DNA of 21,425 nucleotides from a virus: IMG/VR virus record IMGVR_UViG_3300043446_000790, positions 1-21,425 of that record; one strand, written 5' to 3'. The first letter of the stretch is position 1; every line of letters starts with the position of its first letter. A model generated the notes under the pieces. That model worked only from the letters and a program-made list of their open reading frames with translations. It was not told where the DNA came from and ran no database searches. A program made the position numbers and the translations under genes. Shown piece after piece: positions 13,901-21,425 of this stretch.

Positions 13901-14631
13901 TTTTGTTGTGCTGGTAAACGATATGTGTAAACTGCTAGACCTGAATCAACAACAATCTCACATAGACCTTGGTCACTGATTTTGAATGTCTTGTCACCTG
14001 CTAAACTTAGAATAGCAAGAACTTGCTTGATTGGCCATGACCATGCACGAGACAACTTGCCAGTTACATTGCCTTCAAACACAAAGTTACCTGAGTGACT
14101 TGAATGGTCTCCGAAGAACACTTTCAAATCAGTACCATCAACTTTAGTTACGAAAGTTGTTTCTTCTGAGTTAGCACTTGCTTGTTTCTTCAAACGCTGA
14201 ATCGATGCTACACTCGGAGTAAACTCAACGTTGAAATTAATAGCAACCGTCATGATTGGCTTCTTAACTTTTTCTGAGATTACGTTAGAACCCATCAAGC
14301 GATAGTCGTTAACGAAACTACCATCTTTAGTTTCAAAGTGAATAGTGTCTGGTGTATCAACACCATCACGTTGCTTCTTTAAAACTGTGATTTTAGATTC
14401 TGCATCATAATCATCAAAGCCAATGATTGTGCTTAGTTTTGTCAAGTTAGGCATACCGAACGAGCCGATAAACTCTGCATTTGGGTTCTTAAACAAACCA
14501 GAAATCATAACAGAACGGTCTTCTGCGTTTGCGATAATCTCTGTTTGAGTTTGTGAACCTTCTACACGAATAAGGTCGATGCCTTCTAATGCTCGTGTGT
14601 GTTCAATAATGTCTTGTAAAATATCTTTCAT
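13897..14631 (-). CDS. 45: DNA polymerase sliding clamp (T4 gp45-like)
   Basis: A 244-aa protein similar in length and pattern to T4 gp45 (228 aa), the trimeric ring that tethers the polymerase and, in T4, activates late transcription. Typical stretches are FGMPNLTKLSTIIGFDDY (residues ~58-76), FVNDYRLMGSNVISEKV and a C-terminal domain ending in VYTYRLPAQQK. The ATG at 14631 has AAGGA upstream and a strong promoter ~45 bases before it. It follows the polymerase gene with a 78-base gap. Two other proteins in the window besides the polymerase have tails that could bind it. Confidence 0.9.
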   Translation of the reverse strand: MKDILQDIIEHTRALEGIDLIRVEGSQTQTEIIANAEDRSVMISGLFKNPNAEFIGSFGMPNLTKLSTIIGFDDYDAESKITVLKKQRDGVDTPDTIHFETKDGSFVNDYRLMGSNVISEKVKKPIMTVAINFNVEFTPSVASIQRLKKQASANSEETTFVTKVDGTDLKVFFGDHSSHSGNFVFEGNVTGKLSRAWSWPIKQVLAILSLAGDKTFKISDQGLCEIVVDSGLAVYTYRLPAQQK

Positions 14632-14672
14632 GTTTATGTCCTTGTTAATGTATTTAGGAATACTTAATGTGT

Positions 14673-14701
14673 ATTATATAGGAAGTTTTTGCGTTTGTAA
14701 A
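14673..14701 (-). promoter_or_regulatory. Sigma70-like promoter for the clamp-dpdA unit
   Basis: TTTACA (14696-14701) is followed by 17 bases and TATAAT (14673-14678) on the minus strand, inside the 78-base gap between polymerase and clamp genes. A CCTAAATA element at 14651-14658, closer to the clamp ATG, resembles T4-type late promoters (TATAAATA) and may serve a later phase. Confidence 0.75.
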
Positions 14702-14709
14702 CAATTAGT

Positions 14710-17418
14710 TTACCCGAATGAGAACAAATCGTCAAACGTAGATTTAGTATCTGTGTTTGCTCTCAAGTCCCAGTTCAATACACCCAATAAGTTTTCAATC
14801 TTTTCAGTCACTAGTGTGTCTTCCATTAAGTCATCATCAAATGGTAACTCTTTGAACCACTCTGGCAATCTAAGTTCGTCAGTTGGGTATGCAACAGAAG
14901 TCATCTTCAACGCATTTGGTTTGAGTTTACAAACAACAATCTTCATACCGTCAACAATCTTTTGGCTATAGTTATCACCGTGCATTTCACGTAGATAGTT
15001 CCAGTTGATAGCTGCCATAGCATGACCTACACCACACTTACCTGTTTTCTTCCAGTTAGTTGTGTGAGTAGTCAACTTGTTAACTGACTTAGGCGAGCCT
15101 TTAGTCCATGATTCTTGCGCTGATAATGTTCGTTTGAAATCTTTAATGACTTCGATAACATCTTCACGTGTTTTACCTTGCTGAATAACCATACTCAAAA
15201 CGTTCATTAAGAATTCTTGTACGTATTTAGGCGTATCAGCACGTTTCAAATCTAAACCCATAGCCTTAATGTCACCTAGTGAACCATCTTTGTCTTTGCG
15301 CTTGCCTTCTTTATCATAGATGTTAACTGCGTAACGTTTCTTAGTGATAAAGATTGTGCGGTCAGCAACTAGTTCACGACCAGCTTTAATGATTGCACCA
15401 TTCTTACGAGGAGCATGAAATGCTTTCTCCATAAATGCAGGAAAACTATCGTTAACATTCTCACCGATTGTGTCGTAAAGCTGAATACACATGTCTTTGT
15501 CCCATGTCATTTCACCTTTTGCTACTTGATCCTTAAGTGCGGGCCAAGCAGTAAAGTAACATGAGTCAGTATCACCGTAAACGATAGAACGACCATCATG
15601 CTTATACTCACCTTCAACACATTCGTTGATATGGCTCATCATGTGCTTAGTAATCTGACGACCACTTAGAGTTACCGACTGACCAATGCGCTTGTCATAG
15701 AAACGACAATGCTCGTTCAACAACGCACCATAAGCAGAGTTCAATAAAATCTTACGAACAAGTTGACGCTTATCGTAATAGTCGTACATATCAGTGCCGT
15801 ATGCTTCTTTTGCCTTAGCTTGTGTTTCCTTACGTTCACTGTACCAACGACTTAATAGACCGGGAATCACACCTTCTTTTTCATAAGTATAGATGGTTCC
15901 GTTCGCTGAAATCATCCAAGGCTTGTGACTATCAAAGATTAATTTCCATATCTCTGCCGCAGACATTTGCACCGAGCGACCATCTTCGTAATCTACCCAT
16001 AGTAATGTACCACGTTCTTGGTTCATAATTGCTGTGTACTCTAAAGCACCAAACAAGTTTTCCCACAAGATAGCACCAGTTACATCGTCATCGCCTTCTT
16101 TGTAAAACTTCTTAGCTTTAGCAAGGCGCTGACCTTTTTCTTTCATGTACTGGTCTGTGAGGTCTTGTCTGACCTGAGCAACGATGGTTTCTGGCGCCAT
16201 GTTGAGTGCCCGGATGACTGACGGGTAGAGTGAGTTAATGTCAACTGCCCCGACCCAGTCGTGCATTCCCTTTTGGGGATTAGCAACATAGGCACCTGCC
16301 GCTGGTTGAATATCTTCTTCATTTTCTTTCTTCCTTTTCTTATCTGGAACTACCATACCACGTGCATGTGCTTCGTTCATAATAGCCATTTCAATCATAG
16401 CTACTGAGCCCATAACAGTGGGTAACAAAACTGTGTTCTCGTGTGCTAGTGCGTTTGCTAACTCTAAGAACTTTAGTTTATTGTGAATCTTTACCAACAA
16501 CATAGTATCTTGTCTGTTGTATTCTAAGAACTTAAACCAGTCCTTGTTATACAATTGGTCAAGAGTACCTTCATATTGTGTTTTGTTTTCACCGACTTCC
16601 ATCTCACCGATGAAGTCTAGTTTGTAACTGTGGCGTGATTCGTAGTTGTACTTCTTATACAACTGTAAATAGTCCATGTGAATGCGACCAACTAAGTCAT
16701 AAGTCATTTCGACTTTACCGAATCGTTCGTATTCACGAGGTTTGGGAAGTTGTCCCATTAGACAGAACTTGCGTGTGTCGTCTTTTGACATTACACGTGT
16801 AACTCTATTGACCATGTATGGAATATCATAGCCTTCTGAGTTCCAACCAGTCATAACGTCAGCATCTTCAATCAACATAAAGAATGTATCAAACATATCC
16901 TTCTCGTTGTCAAAGATTAAACAGTTTTCAAATTGACTAGCAATTTCTTGTGCTGTTTCTTTACTCATGTGCTTTGGTGGGATACACAATGTTACCAATG
17001 TGTCTTGCCAATCTAAGTACAATGAGATAGCTGTTACTGGATTGAATGGATCACTCGTAGGACTGAAACCTTTAACTGGGTCAAAGTCTACTTCAATGTC
17101 GAAAAAGCATGTGTGAAGTTTTGGGGGTTCAACGCCTAAGTAGTTTTCACTTAGGCAACGGAACACAACGTTAACGTCACTTTCATACAAAGTTTTGTTT
17201 GAGAGGACTCTACGTTCTTTTTCAAACTCACTTCGTTTTCTGGAACTAAAACGTGTTACGGAATTGCCGTAAATACTTCGTTGCTTCCCCTTTGGATCAT
17301 CGTAATAGAATACATAATTAGTTGGGAACTCTTTATATGCTCTTTTACCCTCAGGGGTTCTCTCTACTACATAGATACGGTCTTCATCACGTGAATGAAT
17401 AGCATCAACGTATGACAT
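14710..17418 (-). CDS. 43: Family B DNA polymerase (T4 gp43-like)
   Basis: A 902-aa replicative polymerase, the size of T4/RB69 gp43 (~900). Exonuclease motifs are intact: FFDIEVD (Asp107, Glu109), GWNSEGYDIP (Asp198) and YNRQDT (Asp304). Polymerase motifs are intact: motif A DINSLYPS (Asp393), motif B KILLNSAYG (Lys556 to Gly564) and motif C YGDTDS (Asp616, Asp618). It should therefore be active and proofreading. The C-terminus, TFDDLFSFG, corresponds to the clamp-binding tail of RB69 gp43 (ASLFDMFDF). The ATG overlaps the dsbA-like stop (TAATG). No intron or intein interrupts it. Confidence 0.97.
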   Translation of the reverse strand: MSYVDAIHSRDEDRIYVVERTPEGKRAYKEFPTNYVFYYDDPKGKQRSIYGNSVTRFSSRKRSEFEKERRVLSNKTLYESDVNVVFRCLSENYLGVEPPKLHTCFFDIEVDFDPVKGFSPTSDPFNPVTAISLYLDWQDTLVTLCIPPKHMSKETAQEIASQFENCLIFDNEKDMFDTFFMLIEDADVMTGWNSEGYDIPYMVNRVTRVMSKDDTRKFCLMGQLPKPREYERFGKVEMTYDLVGRIHMDYLQLYKKYNYESRHSYKLDFIGEMEVGENKTQYEGTLDQLYNKDWFKFLEYNRQDTMLLVKIHNKLKFLELANALAHENTVLLPTVMGSVAMIEMAIMNEAHARGMVVPDKKRKKENEEDIQPAAGAYVANPQKGMHDWVGAVDINSLYPSVIRALNMAPETIVAQVRQDLTDQYMKEKGQRLAKAKKFYKEGDDDVTGAILWENLFGALEYTAIMNQERGTLLWVDYEDGRSVQMSAAEIWKLIFDSHKPWMISANGTIYTYEKEGVIPGLLSRWYSERKETQAKAKEAYGTDMYDYYDKRQLVRKILLNSAYGALLNEHCRFYDKRIGQSVTLSGRQITKHMMSHINECVEGEYKHDGRSIVYGDTDSCYFTAWPALKDQVAKGEMTWDKDMCIQLYDTIGENVNDSFPAFMEKAFHAPRKNGAIIKAGRELVADRTIFITKKRYAVNIYDKEGKRKDKDGSLGDIKAMGLDLKRADTPKYVQEFLMNVLSMVIQQGKTREDVIEVIKDFKRTLSAQESWTKGSPKSVNKLTTHTTNWKKTGKCGVGHAMAAINWNYLREMHGDNYSQKIVDGMKIVVCKLKPNALKMTSVAYPTDELRLPEWFKELPFDDDLMEDTLVTEKIENLLGVLNWDLRANTDTKSTFDDLFSFG

Positions 17419-17678
17419 TAGAGAGTTTTACCCACTGTTTCCAAAATTGTGTTGAGTTCTTCGTTGTCTTGATTAGTCTGTGTGAGACTTGCTTTGTGTG
17501 CTACTCGGATAGCCTTTTTGAGTACAGAAGGTTTGACTTCTAATTCTTCTGCGATTGCTTTTACTGTATCAGATAGACCTTCATTGAGTGTATCAATCTC
17601 GTGCAAGACTTGCATACCTTCATTAATCAACTGGGTAAGTTTGATTTTTTGGTCACCACTGAAAATTTTTGCTGTCAT
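17418..17678 (-). CDS. dsbA: DsbA-like double-stranded DNA-binding protein (T4 type)
   Basis: An 86-aa helical protein: KIKLTQLINEGMQVLHEID, then LSDTVKAIAEELEVKPSVLK, KAIRVAHKAS and an acidic tail. Length and the 'LxxTVKAIAEELxVKPxxLxKAxRxA' pattern fit T4 DsbA (89 aa), a late-transcription accessory DNA-binding protein; this rests on memory of the family. AGGAG lies before the ATG at 17678 and a consensus promoter lies just upstream, so it heads the polymerase transcript. Confidence 0.7.
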   Translation of the reverse strand: MTAKIFSGDQKIKLTQLINEGMQVLHEIDTLNEGLSDTVKAIAEELEVKPSVLKKAIRVAHKASLTQTNQDNEELNTILETVGKTL

Positions 17679-17702
17679 ATATAATCTCCTAAAGAAGTAG
17701 TT

Positions 17703-17731
17703 ATTATATATGAGCTACGCAACAAAGTCAA
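17703..17731 (-). promoter_or_regulatory. Sigma70-like promoter for the dsbA-polymerase unit
   Basis: On the minus strand TTGACT (17726-17731), a 17-base spacer and TATAAT (17703-17708), five of six and six of six to consensus. It occupies the 78-base gap between the GNAT gene and the dsbA-like gene, ~25 bases before the ATG. Confidence 0.82.
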
Positions 17732-17756
17732 ACTTTTTGCGTAATGAATTTGACCT

Positions 17757-18119
17757 TTATTCTTCCCAAATACGAACATCTTCGCCGCGATGTTTGTCCC
17801 AGAAGCCGGCGCCTGCATCTGTTTGGTCATAACTACGATGAATTTCATAACCATGACTAGTTACATAGTCATACATTATTTTAGCAATACCTTGACCCTG
17901 GTACCTATCTTCTACACGTAAATCTTGTGGGTCCAGTTCAGTGACTCCACCAACTGTATCACCGATGTTAAAAACAACATATCCCAACTCGTTAGTACCC
18001 CAATCATCAATTGCTTTGACAATTAGTTGCCCATCTTTTTCAACCATGGACATCTTCAACCCTTCATAATCTTCTGTAGGGTATTTTTTGTATTCGACTA
18101 TAAATTCATTTGCTCTCAT
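17757..18119 (-). CDS. GNAT acetyltransferase-like protein with a capsid-targeting-like N-terminus
   Basis: A 120-aa protein starting MRANEFIVE, like the T4 internal-protein capsid-targeting peptide MKTYQEFIAE. It continues as a compact GNAT fold: PQDLRVEDRYQGQGIAKIMY carries the acetyl-CoA pyrophosphate loop (RYQGQGIA, residues 72-79), and the end is AGAGFWDKHRGEDVRIWEE. The same GNAT block with ~60% identity forms the N-terminal half of the protein at 19412-20095, so the two arose by duplication. The acceptor is unknown; if cleaved after Glu9 and packaged, it would be an injected modifier of host proteins. The ATG lies within the 3' end of the 57-aa gene. Confidence 0.82.
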   Translation of the reverse strand: MRANEFIVEYKKYPTEDYEGLKMSMVEKDGQLIVKAIDDWGTNELGYVVFNIGDTVGGVTELDPQDLRVEDRYQGQGIAKIMYDYVTSHGYEIHRSYDQTDAGAGFWDKHRGEDVRIWEE

Positions 18120-18279
18120 TAATCATTCTCTTTATTAATGTAAAAATGCTCAAAGGATTCTTATTATACTGTTTTTGTAAGACTTGTGCTTTAAAATCAA
18201 TAGTCTCTTTGCCCATTTCAAATAAATCACCTGGTACTTTTTGTACTTTATTGGAAGATATCGCGGTGTTCTTTGCCAT
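18106..18279 (-). CDS. Small unknown protein overlapping its two neighbours (57 aa)
   Basis: A 57-aa ORF from the ATG at 18279, inside the 3' end of the metallopeptidase gene, to a TGA at 18106, 14 bases into the GNAT gene. It fills the otherwise empty 128 bases between them. The product is Lys-rich: MAKNTAISSNKVQKVPGDLF, then EMGKETIDFKAQVLQKQYNK and NPLSIFTLIKRMINESK, probably a C-terminal amphipathic helix. A shorter start exists at the second Met (residue 22). The ribosome binding site is weak. No family is recognised. Translation is plausible from gap-filling and coupling. Confidence 0.6.
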   Translation of the reverse strand: MAKNTAISSNKVQKVPGDLFEMGKETIDFKAQVLQKQYNKNPLSIFTLIKRMINESK

Positions 18280-18838
18280 AAATCTTAATGTACTTTCCCG
18301 CTAACATATCTGCCATTGCCTCGATAGGACTTCCTGGATAACTATCCCCAGGTTTAATCATATTAAGTTCTTCTTGGCGTTGATGAACTAGTTCATGGAA
18401 AACTGTTCTAAAGATATCTACTAAATTTCTATTTTCAATATAGACCCAAATTTCATCACCGTTATGTAAACCTGTGTGATGTCCTTGCTGTGCTTGATTG
18501 GTGTCTCTACTGAATTTAAATTTAGGCTTTGATTTAACATGTAACACTTTCATTGACCAATCAACAAAGTGATGTAATCGTGCTAAGTCTTTATCTGAAT
18601 CTACTGATTCATTGACTTGTTCTTCGTTACGTTGTTTGATTTTCTTTACCCAGTTGTCTGGGGTAGAACGGTACTTTTTGACGAATAAATCGTGTAGTTT
18701 CTCGCCTGTTAATTTATGCTTATGACAAATTTTTTGCATCAATTCGTCAATTGCATCATAGTCAATTCTTTTGAGTGTAGGTAGCTTATTTGCTAGTTCT
18801 TCTACGGGGTCAGAAAGTTTAAAGTCGTTAAATCGCAT
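18248..18838 (-). CDS. HExxH zinc metallopeptidase-like protein
   Basis: A 196-aa protein. The C-terminal half carries HELVHQRQEE (His148, Glu149, His152) and a downstream SPIEAMADMLAGKY with Glu173 as the likely third zinc ligand, the gluzincin arrangement. The N-terminal half (residues 13-80) is helical and charged, and TGLHNGDEIWVYIEN (122-136) resembles the edge strand before the active helix. The start MRFNDFKLSD echoes the MRANEF leader of its neighbours but lacks the FIxE cleavage pattern. There is no signal peptide or membrane segment, so it acts in the cytoplasm, or in the host after injection if packaged. CATAAATA ends six bases before the ATG. Confidence 0.8.
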   Translation of the reverse strand: MRFNDFKLSDPVEELANKLPTLKRIDYDAIDELMQKICHKHKLTGEKLHDLFVKKYRSTPDNWVKKIKQRNEEQVNESVDSDKDLARLHHFVDWSMKVLHVKSKPKFKFSRDTNQAQQGHHTGLHNGDEIWVYIENRNLVDIFRTVFHELVHQRQEELNMIKPGDSYPGSPIEAMADMLAGKYIKIYGKEHRDIFQ

Positions 18839-18935
18839 AATATGTATTTATGCGTAAAAGCTCACTTTAGCAATTCAAAGGGTAGCGAATCCTGTTGCTC
18901 GGCAGCAGCCGCCGACACGGTCCTAAGGCGTGTTC
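18839..18935 (-). other. Structured, GC-rich intergenic gap
   Basis: A 97-base gap inside an otherwise overlapping operon. It contains a 5-bp perfect hairpin ACACG/CGTGT around a 9-base loop holding the palindrome CCTAAGG (18915-18933). A second possible hairpin, GTTGCT/AGCAGC with a CGGC loop, spans 18894-18909, and a competing CGGC/GCCG pairing overlaps it. No T-run follows, and no tRNA fold could be drawn. CATAAATA at 18845-18852 resembles a late promoter. A GTG-started 18-codon frame (18862-18918) also fits inside. Confidence 0.5.
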
Positions 18936-19415
18936 TTATAGTTTATTCTCAGGTTTGTCGTATGCTCTACGGTCAGTAAGTGAGAATACCATACCATCGA
19001 CTGGATCTTTTTTGCTATACAAGTCCCAATCAGGTAATAATCGTTTTATCATCTTAGCATATAAGCCAATGCGACTATCTTCTTTCGCATTGAATGTAAT
19101 TTCTTCAACTCTATCAAGACCATACTCTTTTAAGAAAGCACGTGTAATATCAACTGCTGTTGACATTACTTCTGCTGAGTTACCTGTGCCAGTTTGTCCG
19201 AATAAGTCTAACTCATCAGGGTCTACATCAGGTTTTCTTATTAAACGAAATTGTATTTCCCACTTTTTAGGATTGCTACCTGTAAACGCTTGCCAAAGAT
19301 ATTCTCTACCGCCTACTTTGAAAAACGCAGATACTTCGTTAGTACCAAGGCGTGCCCACTCCCAGTTCTTTTTACCGGGTTCGAATACTTCAGTGATAAA
19401 TTCGTTTGCTCTCAT
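18936..19415 (-). CDS. Unknown phage protein with a capsid-targeting-like N-terminus
   Basis: A 159-aa protein starting MRANEFITE, matching its neighbours' leader and the T4 capsid-targeting/protease-cleavage pattern (cleavage expected after Glu9). The body is alpha/beta: SAFFKVGGREYLWQAFTG, KKWEIQFRLIRKPDVD, a Gly-rich turn TGTGNSAEVMSTAVDITRAF (residues ~75-95) and ITFNAKEDSRIGLYAKMIKR. I have a memory of a broad phage family with this GTGN...SR.LY.RMIKR pattern, still unnamed. No catalytic site is evident. The ATG overlaps the upstream stop (ATGA). Confidence 0.8.
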   Translation of the reverse strand: MRANEFITEVFEPGKKNWEWARLGTNEVSAFFKVGGREYLWQAFTGSNPKKWEIQFRLIRKPDVDPDELDLFGQTGTGNSAEVMSTAVDITRAFLKEYGLDRVEEITFNAKEDSRIGLYAKMIKRLLPDWDLYSKKDPVDGMVFSLTDRRAYDKPENKL

Positions 19416-20095
19416 TGGTCTGTGTAATCCTCAACTTGTGTAATCATGTTGGGTAGTATGTCGCCTAAGTACATGCACTGGTCTGTTTCTTTTAAACTGT
19501 CAATCCAATTGTCAACAGTAGTATGATCCAAATCACCCACTAATCTCTTTTGGTCTAATTTACTTACGTCAACTGTAATTAAAGTAACATAATCATTACC
19601 AGTTCTTTCTTGGTCTGACACAGCATACTCTAATGCTAAGTCAGGGTTATCAGTTAAGAATACTGCGTGGTGTCTGCCACCTCGTAAACCTTGTTGCTGA
19701 ATAACATCAGCGGGCTCAGATGTTCCATGCCATAGTTGTGTAGGTGCTGATTGTGCATCTTCCCAAACATACGCATCTTCTCCGCGATGCTTATCCCAAA
19801 AGCCAGCTCCTGCTTTAGTTTGGTCATGACTTCTATTGATGATGTACCCTTCATCTTTTAATGAATCGTACATAGACTTGGCAATACCTCTATTACGATA
19901 TTCATCATTCACCCAGAGGTCTTGAGGATATAACTCTTTGTTTTCTTTGTGAAACTTAACGTAAGCTAATGGAGTTTTAGTTGCTGGTTCAAATGCCTTC
20001 ATAATCAACGCATGGTCGTTAAAGGCAAACTTTAAAGATAAGCCATTGCGTTTTACTGCTTTAGCTTCTTCAGTAACAAACTCAGTTGCTCTCAT
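19412..20095 (-). CDS. GNAT plus ADP-ribosyltransferase-like fusion with a capsid-targeting-like N-terminus
   Basis: A 227-aa protein. Residues 1-9 are MRATEFVTE, the leader motif. Residues ~20-113 form a GNAT domain (YRNRGIAKSMYD, residues 66-77, acetyl-CoA loop; ending AGAGFWDKHRGEDAYVWED). Residues ~121-217 look like an ADP-ribosyltransferase/KptA-type fold: LWHGTSEPADVIQQQGLRGG (His at 123), VFLTDNPDLALEYA (Tyr at 157), VTLITVDVSKL, and YLGDILPNMI near the end, where this superfamily has its third active-site element. The classic R-S-E triad is not visible. T4 packages the ADP-ribosyltransferase Alt and injects it with DNA; this may be a functional analogue. It overlaps the dps stop (TAATG). 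Confidence 0.75.
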   Translation of the reverse strand: MRATEFVTEEAKAVKRNGLSLKFAFNDHALIMKAFEPATKTPLAYVKFHKENKELYPQDLWVNDEYRNRGIAKSMYDSLKDEGYIINRSHDQTKAGAGFWDKHRGEDAYVWEDAQSAPTQLWHGTSEPADVIQQQGLRGGRHHAVFLTDNPDLALEYAVSDQERTGNDYVTLITVDVSKLDQKRLVGDLDHTTVDNWIDSLKETDQCMYLGDILPNMITQVEDYTDQ

Positions 20096-20541
20096 TACTC
20101 ACGTTCTTTTTTGAGAATACTACGAATGAACCATGCTTTCTTAGCATATAAGTCTTGTAGTTCAGCCATGTAGTTAGCAATACCTTGTTGACGTTCTTGT
20201 GTCGCTTGGTCAAACATTTCAACTACTAATTGAATCATTGTTTCGCAATCTTGCAATGATTCAGCAAACATCAATTCAGCACGTGGGATTTTAGTTTGGT
20301 CTTGAATGATACTCAACTCACTGTAACGAGATAAGCTACCTGGAGTATATGCACCTAGTATTCTTACATACTCAGCAATACGGTCGATTGTGCCACTTAC
20401 ATCACCATATAGTGTGTCAAAGAATTCGTGATATTGTGGGAAATCAGAACCTTCAATATTCCAATGAAAGTTTTGTGACTTGATAGCAAAACTTTGAGTG
20501 CTTGCTAATAACACTTTTAAACTGTCTGATAACATATTCAT
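20095..20541 (-). CDS. dps: Dps-family ferritin-like protein
   Basis: A 148-aa Dps protein, normally a 12-subunit shell that oxidises and stores iron and protects DNA. All five ferroxidase ligands are present at the spacing I know from E. coli Dps (12, 4, 11, 4 residues): His26 in FHWNIEG, His38 and Asp42 in YHEFFD, Asp53 and Glu57 in DRIAEYVRILG. The lysine-rich N-terminal DNA-binding tail of E. coli Dps is missing, so DNA binding is uncertain. It has no capsid-targeting leader. Its ATG overlaps the micro-ORF stop (ATGA) and its stop overlaps the next ATG. Confidence 0.92.
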   Translation of the reverse strand: MNMLSDSLKVLLASTQSFAIKSQNFHWNIEGSDFPQYHEFFDTLYGDVSGTIDRIAEYVRILGAYTPGSLSRYSELSIIQDQTKIPRAELMFAESLQDCETMIQLVVEMFDQATQERQQGIANYMAELQDLYAKKAWFIRSILKKERE

Positions 20542-20600
20542 TTACTCGGTTGTGGGGGAGGACTACCTTTACGATTCCAATAGAATTCAAAGTAGTCCAT
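20538..20600 (-). CDS. Possible 20-aa micro-ORF between the GP88-family gene and dps
   Basis: An ATG at 20600, five bases after the GP88-family stop codon, opens a frame of 20 codons that ends with a TGA overlapping the dps ATG (ATGA). The peptide is aromatic then Pro-rich (MDYFEFYWNRKG, then a PPPQP stretch). It exactly bridges two genes, as the other coupled genes here do. No ribosome binding site is clear. It may serve only to couple translation into dps, or be a real microprotein. Confidence 0.4.
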   Translation of the reverse strand: MDYFEFYWNRKGSPPPQPSK

Positions 20601-20604
20601 TTAT

Positions 20605-21425
20605 TTAGTGTCTCAATAACAATGTGCTTATTACATTAGGATCATTTGCACTAATGTCACCTTCGCCTGGAGCAACGATAACGTTGTACTTCATACCAGA
20701 AACTTTAGGCTTGCTTGTGTATTCATCATAAGAAAGAATACTGCTTGGGCTTAGTCCATACTGTTGCGCTAAACGATTCTTCAACTCTTTTAATTTATCA
20801 GGTTGAACTTGCCATTGACCAGATGAACCTTTGATTAAGTTACCCTTTTCGTTCTTAACTAATAAGTCTTGGAACAACTCATCAGGAACAATACGACTAT
20901 TCTTAGTTGAATCTAAATTAGGATCAGCTGCCTTAACTTGTTTCTCTTGTGATGTATGAGCACCTTCACTCCAGTTGATAATGAAGTTAGCTGGCTTCTT
21001 ACCTAGAGCCGCGCCTGCCATTTTTGTGTAAGCATAGAACTTAACATCAGGATGCTTTTGAGCCATCTTTAATGCCAAGTCTAAGTATTCTGGACTAAAG
21101 AAGTCACCAGCATCATGCCAGCGAATAGTTACACTGTAGCCACCCTTCTTGCCTAATTGTTCTTCTTTAGCAATCTCACTGCTTAACTGATTGAAGAAGC
21201 CGGTTGGGTCATTCAATAGATATGTTAAGATACGACCATCGCTCAACCAAGCTGCCTTGAATTGAACTTTACCGCCCTTCATAGCAAAGCAATCTACTTT
21301 ACATGAACCAGCACCTGGACATGTATTAACAATGATTAGTTTACCAGTAGTTTCATCTACTGCTACACCAGTCAATGCAGCAAAGCCAACGTTAAAGAAT
21401 TGTTCTAAAGCGCCATTTGAATGCT
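20605..21425 (-). CDS. GP88-family Cys-rich phage protein (5' end outside the window)
   Basis: The frame is open to the right edge, so the N-terminus is missing; the in-frame TTG at 21375 is not taken as the start because homologous-looking sequence continues upstream (ALEQFFNVGFAALTGVA). Visible: NTCPGAGSCKVDCFAMKGG with three spaced cysteines, YSVTIRWHDAGDFFSPEYL, VKFYAYTK, and a long polar C-terminal half ending VISTLLLRH. The CP..xxC..xC and RWHxxGDFFSxEYL patterns fit the mycobacteriophage gene-88-like family as I remember it, whose biochemical role is not known to me. The cysteines could bind metal. Confidence 0.75.
   Translation of the reverse strand, partial: HSNGALEQFFNVGFAALTGVAVDETTGKLIIVNTCPGAGSCKVDCFAMKGGKVQFKAAWLSDGRILTYLLNDPTGFFNQLSSEIAKEEQLGKKGGYSVTIRWHDAGDFFSPEYLDLALKMAQKHPDVKFYAYTKMAGAALGKKPANFIINWSEGAHTSQEKQVKAADPNLDSTKNSRIVPDELFQDLLVKNEKGNLIKGSSGQWQVQPDKLKELKNRLAQQYGLSPSSILSYDEYTSKPKVSGMKYNVIVAPGEGDISANDPNVISTLLLRH

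Follow-up and report, generated by a model that had tools for sequence, protein, structure and literature searches.

A Leader Like That of T4 Internal Proteins Precedes Predicted Modular Cargo in Uncultured T4-Like Jumbo Phages

Leader-Bearing Genes in the Window

The window analyzed in this study is a 21.4-kb virus fragment (IMG/VR record IMGVR_UViG_3300043446_000790, positions 1 to 21,425), in which a gp43-type DNA polymerase gene, a Dps-like gene and four genes of a leader cluster lie side by side (Table 1). Three of the four encode proteins starting with MRANEFIVE, MRANEFITE and MRATEFVTE. All four open reading frames (ORFs) lie on the minus strand, and their coordinates and these starts agree with the first-pass annotation, which had taken the shared start as the mark of a modular island of injected effectors. 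No leader ORF of at least 60 amino acids (aa) besides those listed was found within positions 14000-21425, and many further leader starts were found in relatives. Our analysis revealed that the leader ends in a strict [IL]xE and precedes unrelated proteins, and it probably belongs to a T4-type capsid-targeting system, which would deliver modular cargo with gp21-type cleavage.

Table 1. Features of the leader cluster and its neighbors in the window (an arrow marks the predicted cut or the corresponding position).
Feature	Position	Strand	Remarks
GNAT-family protein, 120 aa	17757..18119	-	Leader MRANEFIVE, codons 18093-18119; predicted cut after E9
Zincin-type metallopeptidase (FHELVH), 196 aa	18248..18838	-	Degraded leader MRFNDFKLSD↓P at 18809-18838
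Predicted GNAT-like-fold protein, 159 aa	18936..19415	-	Leader MRANEFITE, 19389-19415
GNAT + ADP-ribosyltransferase (ART) fusion, 227 aa	19412..20095	-	Leader MRATEFVTE, 20069-20095; GNAT, residues 10-112; predicted ART-superfamily module (KptA/Tpt1-like), residues 113-227
Possible gp21-type site VWE↓D within the fusion	19752..19768	-	Between GNAT and ART modules; residue 112 precedes the cut and ends at base 19760
Dps/ferritin-like gene	20095..20541	-	PF00210, E 2e-17; directly upstream of the leader genes, overlapping them
gp43-type DNA polymerase	14710..17418	-	PF00136, E 3e-42; without leader

Conservation and Distribution of the Leader

The pattern M[KR]xxEF[hydrophobic]xE gave 41 matches in 14 related records, compared with 0 for the reversed pattern, and about 70 matches in 19 further records, again with 0 for the control. 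A stricter leader pattern was found in at least 120 stretches of IMG/VR (five for a control with E and F swapped), and among the IMG/VR matches listed, 138 of 144 leader sites were located at the beginning of an ORF. Bacterial and archaeal contigs (257 Gb) contained 25 matches, many of them within genes or in very short frames, and the pattern had 0 matches in five cultured jumbo phages. Chance similarity was ruled out by the reversed and swapped controls and by the rarity in bacterial and archaeal contigs; the leader is real, widespread and capsid-targeting-like, far above chance. Common descent of all leader carriers was also rejected, because BLAST with the leader removed separates the bodies into 34 unrelated clusters (102 first-module families in a finer grouping); it holds for the two GNATs of the window.

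To describe the leader from a sample blind to it, loci were gathered via the polymerase, and ORF starts were picked by M[RK]A..F only (n = 74). Glu occupies residue 9 in 71 of these starts, and Asp in none; I or L is found at residue 7 in 68, and at residue 5, 61 starts have Glu and nine have Asp. Conservation is gone from residue 10 onward. With E and never D at residue 9 and mostly I/L at residue 7, the last three residues match the (L/I)xE rule of the prohead protease gp21, and the cut site of this type proposed in the first pass fits both the residues and the point where conservation stops. Two window genes depart from [IL]xE: the zincin, whose leader ends in LSD, and the GNAT-ART fusion, which has V at residue 7. 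Furthermore, the conserved residues use varied synonymous codons (GCA/GCC/GCG/GCT, TTT/TTC, ATC/ATA/ATT and GAA/GAG), so selection acts on the protein.

As a separate observation, late-promoter-like boxes of the form DATAAATA favor two distances from the start codon, 12-13 nucleotides (nt; 47 cases) and 25-29 nt (65 cases), in G006, G013, G001 and G003 (loci L108-L162), overlapping pieces being counted twice in these numbers. With the 12-13 nt class, transcription would begin at the ATG or close to it, which suggests leaderless late mRNAs.

Proteins Behind the Leader

The 120-aa protein and the N-terminal half of the fusion are paralogues with 47.5% identity. The former matches Pfam Acetyltransf_1/7 weakly (E 1.5e-3), and both window GNATs score below the curated profile cut-off (19.1-19.6 bits, while 20.7-27 are required); their homologue L016 clears PF13508 at 34.4 bits, and fold matches agree with GNAT. 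For the C-terminal half of the fusion, the match to PF18760 (ART-PolyVal) is under the cut-off (E 4e-4), and residues 118-227 of the structural model align with Tpt1/KptA (8tg6) at Z 10.4 (root-mean-square deviation 2.7 over 90 residues). On this model the half is predicted to have an ART fold of the KptA/Tpt1 type, and its activity is likewise a prediction. A Foldseek search with the fusion model returned nothing below E 1e-3.

The 159-aa protein, unknown in the first pass, was aligned with 12 homologues, and an AlphaFold model was obtained for residues 15-150 of homologue L033. Acetyltransferases fill the top rows of the structural matches throughout, GNATs reaching Z scores up to 9.1, a middling score, and the protein models as a GNAT-like fold. 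Both the ART assignment and this one were made by structural re-alignment of middling models, with a mean predicted local distance difference test score (pLDDT) of 70 and 62. Of the earlier description of the bodies, GNAT and ART-like were retained and the unknown was replaced by a predicted GNAT-like fold. The idea of four different bodies does not hold, since two GNATs are paralogues and a third protein is GNAT-like; the set comprises three predicted GNAT-fold proteins, one of which is fused to an ART-like module, and a zincin.

The zincin was assigned by its HELVH motif. In its orthologues an ending of the form [hydrophobic]xE is found at residues 8-10 in 51 of the 54 N-termini compared, although the starts differ widely (MNTKDIIIE, MISDEILTE, MKSYQIITE and MRANEFLLE). 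The window copy and that of L032 carry L/I-S-D in place of the E-site, and the window copy has a degraded member of the same leader family. In this way the fourth neighbor is retained as a metallopeptidase with a related leader, and the equal standing given to that leader is not, as it ends in LSD and has no E. A CATAAATA box lies 14 nt upstream of the zincin ATG, at 18845-18852.

In other loci, the proteins behind the leader include AAA_33/zeta-toxin-like kinases, GH19 hydrolases and basic proteins. GH19 was found in G001, G003, G004, G006, G007, G009, G010 and G013, several of which encode it twice, once in the island with the leader and once at a different site as a protein of about 207-239 aa. 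The separate copies have no leader in all four N-termini read (G001, G003, G006 and G013), and on these grounds the leader as a feature of endolysins was rejected as the principal explanation.

Link to gp21 and gp23

Of the leader records that were found by DNA pattern alone and measure 191 kb or more, 8/8 contain peptidase S77 (gp21, PF03420), and S78 protease (HK97-type) was found in none of these eight. Two more genomes, G006 and G013, have genes for gp21 as well as gp23, which brings S77 to 10/10 leader records of this size. A gp21-type protease, which the first pass had proposed to look for, is thus present in all ten of these large leader-bearing records, the window being a 21-kb fragment. 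No S77 was seen in eleven shorter leader records, as may be with fragments.

The predicted gp23 propeptides of this clade end in LLAE↓, LME↓, LRE↓, LNE↓ or LTE↓, matching the end of the leader, and are followed by an [ST][AT]-rich GAT/GTT...GN motif. In several small proteins, a leader is immediately followed by the gp23 context (MKIREIVE↓SATAGATSAGNVA, MKIRDILE↓SATAGATSSGSIA and MRANEFIKE↓TASAGATTSGNIA), and T4 gp61.1 (MKTFKEFIKE...GTTSGAVVNKGP) resembles them. Tiny proteins at L207:3893-4078, L224:7400-7597, L360:3528-3776 and L216:11638-11838, as well as T4 gp61.1, combine an [IL]xE leader, the motif of the mature gp23 N-terminus (ATAGATSAGN) and a basic tail; such proteins may dock at the place where gp23 is cut. 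Additionally, short ORFs in which an N-terminal segment of gp23 (e.g., IIMPIIRQVTPTLLANSILGVQPMTGPVGEIFTMKA) is fused to an unrelated C-terminus were detected at G006:200850-201269(-), G006:13480-13854(+) and G001:47883-48221(+).

The closest cultured relatives of the window polymerase are those of the T4-like jumbo phages Phosso, Atu_ph07, XaC1 and GAP32, and this places the window near that group. The small protein adjoining the polymerase (17418-17678, minus strand) matches PHROG family 639, which comprises transcription regulators (E 2.5e-9), as well as phrog_12534, and is possibly a DsbA-like late-transcription factor.

Exchange of Modules and Their Junctions

Behind the Dps-like gene, different leader proteins are found in L003, L007, L027, L036 and L038, and the upstream context is conserved. 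The ART module of the window recurs at 80-96% identity behind several distinct leaders or junctions: MLSKEFIFE, MRATEFISE with a Gly-rich segment ending in MAE, MKTIREYLNLLE, MKINEILTE, and the DITE that precedes it where it forms the last module of a 412-aa fusion. Both the cargo swaps and the varied contexts of the ART module support the modular island proposed earlier.

Fusions of several modules also occur, such as GNAT-like, GNAT and kinase-like modules in L003/L033, a further fusion in L372, and GNAT with ART in the window. To determine what precedes an internal module, junctions were surveyed where leader bodies, used as queries without the leader, sit inside longer ORFs, which yielded 79 distinct junctions, related sequences included. 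The motif [ILVM]xE stands exactly before the internal module in 61 of them (background 1.75%), [ILVM]xD does so in none, shifted positions giving 0-11, and the best junction bears [ILVM]xE in 14 of 18 module families. Most internal [ILVM]xE sites are not remnants of a leader. The leader and the junctions fall in low-confidence stretches of the structural models (residues 1-10, with pLDDT below 50, and 105-117 of the window fusion; residues 1-14, 155-162 and 238-293 of L033).

On balance, we lean toward the view that injected cargo takes the form of modular polyproteins in this phage group, in which one targeting peptide would load the whole chain and sites for the maturation protease before each exchangeable module would free the effectors in the head; a domain would become cargo by acquiring either a leader or an [ILV]xE junction. 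These junctions are the newest part of the finding: no report of effector polyproteins cut by a prohead protease was found in the open literature searched, most subscription papers and preprints lying outside the search.

Proposed Mechanism and Alternative Explanations

In the explanation that we prefer, the shared nine-residue start would act as a capsid-targeting propeptide like that of T4 internal proteins. Late in infection, it would bring the enzymes, namely the GNATs, the GNAT-ART fusion and probably the zincin, to the core of the prohead, and the phage's gp21-type prohead protease would cleave after Glu9. The mature enzymes would remain in the head, pass with the DNA into the next host, and there modify host targets or block defences. 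The same cleavage rule would split the modules of longer fusions, so that polyproteins would probably be cut inside the prohead. Processing and injection of the leader proteins are likely on the sequence evidence, and the injected-effector idea of the first-pass annotation is well supported as an inference, whereas its account of the bodies holds only in part.

Several points weigh against this explanation. Targeting, cleavage, packaging, injection and host effect are all deduced for uncultured phages, and no cultured case of the MRAxEFIxE form was found in searches with the ART fusion and the common leader body or among cultured jumbo T4-likes and model cyanophages. In the T4 leader, residues 4 and 7 serve targeting and residues 8 and 10 processing, gp21 cutting after L/I-x-E (PMC9026906); the targeting residue F7 has a counterpart in F6 here, but Y4 has none (A3 is conserved and residue 4 is variable). 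Asp at the cut position in T4 stops cutting yet permits targeting (PMC9026906), and if that rule holds, the D of the window zincin would be expected to block cutting. The leader is also found on GH19 peptidoglycan hydrolase, which is not an obvious host-takeover enzyme, and a late-promoter-like box lies within 120 nt of 13 out of 70 leader genes, the rest of which may lie inside operons. Finally, the junction and leader counts include related sequences, so that computed P-values are too strong; the count of 14 among 18 families is not explained by relatedness.

It is unlikely that the leader is a structural propeptide binding the scaffold, with proteins loaded and cut during head assembly that act in the particle (in DNA condensation, head size or peptidoglycan passage) and not in the host cytoplasm. 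Such a role would suit the commonest leader family (~125-130 aa) and the basic Lys/Arg-rich bodies without enzymatic signature, as well as a GH19 hydrolase working on peptidoglycan at ejection, and T4 IPIII does affect head assembly (PMC9026906). However, a function in the head is not obvious for GNAT, ART, zincin and kinase-like bodies, and in T4 the injected proteins Ip1-3 block nucleases of host defence (PMC12373910).

Cutting of the internal [ILV]xE junctions by a protease other than gp21 seems improbable. Zincin modules, which occur in the island and within fusions, are candidates for it, and for polyvalent proteins Iyer et al. put forward self-cleavage by metallopeptidase domains within the chain (PMC5512222), but the junction-bearing fusions of L003, L033 and L009 have no zincin motif, and the junctions show the site predicted for gp23 in this clade.

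We regard as quite improbable an N-terminal signal for a non-capsid purpose (membrane, phage compartment or stability), whose Glu-ended motif gp21 would not cut. Cleavage of the leader is predicted, and some bodies continue as a Tat-like or hydrophobic segment (MSRRGFLGALGAGAMAAS); the use of E and never D at residue 9, the [ILV]xE before internal modules and the identity with the gp23 site context all speak for a gp21 site instead.

That the leader is a DNA-level element, a translation enhancer or recombination site travelling with exchanged genes without any protein function, is extremely improbable, for although genes behind the Dps-like gene are swapped with nearly identical upstream DNA, the conserved residues vary in synonymous codons, divergent leaders such as those of the zincin orthologues MNTKDIIIE and MISDEILTE retain only [ILV]xE, and most internal sites did not arise from leaders.

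If capsid targeting with gp21-type cleavage is true, an M...EFIxE start, or [ILV]xE before a module, would predict packaged and injected proteins in many uncultured phages where homology fails, and would point to proteins that can be examined at once for counter-defence and host-takeover roles. The prohead protease would then have a second job in polyprotein processing, and the T4 internal proteins, mostly small and anti-restriction so far, would be linked to the multi-domain polyvalent proteins.

Comparison With Known Systems

The T4 internal proteins have nothing in common but a leader that directs packaging; they are delivered by injection, and each of Ip1-3 acts by blocking a GmrSD nuclease (PMC12373910); ipII and ipIII start with MKTYQEFIAE. 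The proteins described here resemble IPI, IPII and IPIII in a short N-terminal peptide ending in EFIxE, in unrelated bodies, in gp21 (encoded by the larger relatives here) and in the (L/I)xE cut rule. They differ in a leader of nine residues with MRA in place of MKTY(F), in their occurrence in uncultured T4-like jumbo phages, and in bodies that are recognizable enzymes and multi-module fusions from more than 30 clusters. Because packaging is predicted here and Y4 lacks a counterpart, membership in the T4 internal proteins is not claimed.

T4 Alt is a packaged ADP-ribosyltransferase, and the likeness lies in an ART-superfamily enzyme for which packaging with gp21 processing is predicted here. 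The ART module of the window is KptA/Tpt1-like by its model and has a shared exchangeable leader, and its membership in Alt/VIP2 is not established.

Polyvalent proteins are multi-domain proteins with ART, GNAT, zincin and kinase-like domains, which are predicted to be packaged and injected and for which embedded peptidases were proposed (Iyer et al., 2017, PMC5512222). The fusions described here likewise carry several effector domains of the same repertoire in one polypeptide, but their modules are parted by sites of the prohead-protease type and they start with a capsid-targeting-like leader.

The nearest cultured parallels are GNATs with a T4-type leader in two cyanophages, S-CRM01 g185 (MKTFDEFLTE; NC_015569 139045-139440) and B23 gp252 (MKTYSQFITE; MN695335 122703-123095), both annotated only as acetyltransferase or hypothetical. 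As in the window, a GNAT stands behind a leader, which has the 10-residue T4 form in the cyanophages, the likeness being one of leader and GNAT label and not of compared GNATs. With these two cultured phages, the idea that such enzymes are capsid cargo is open to testing.
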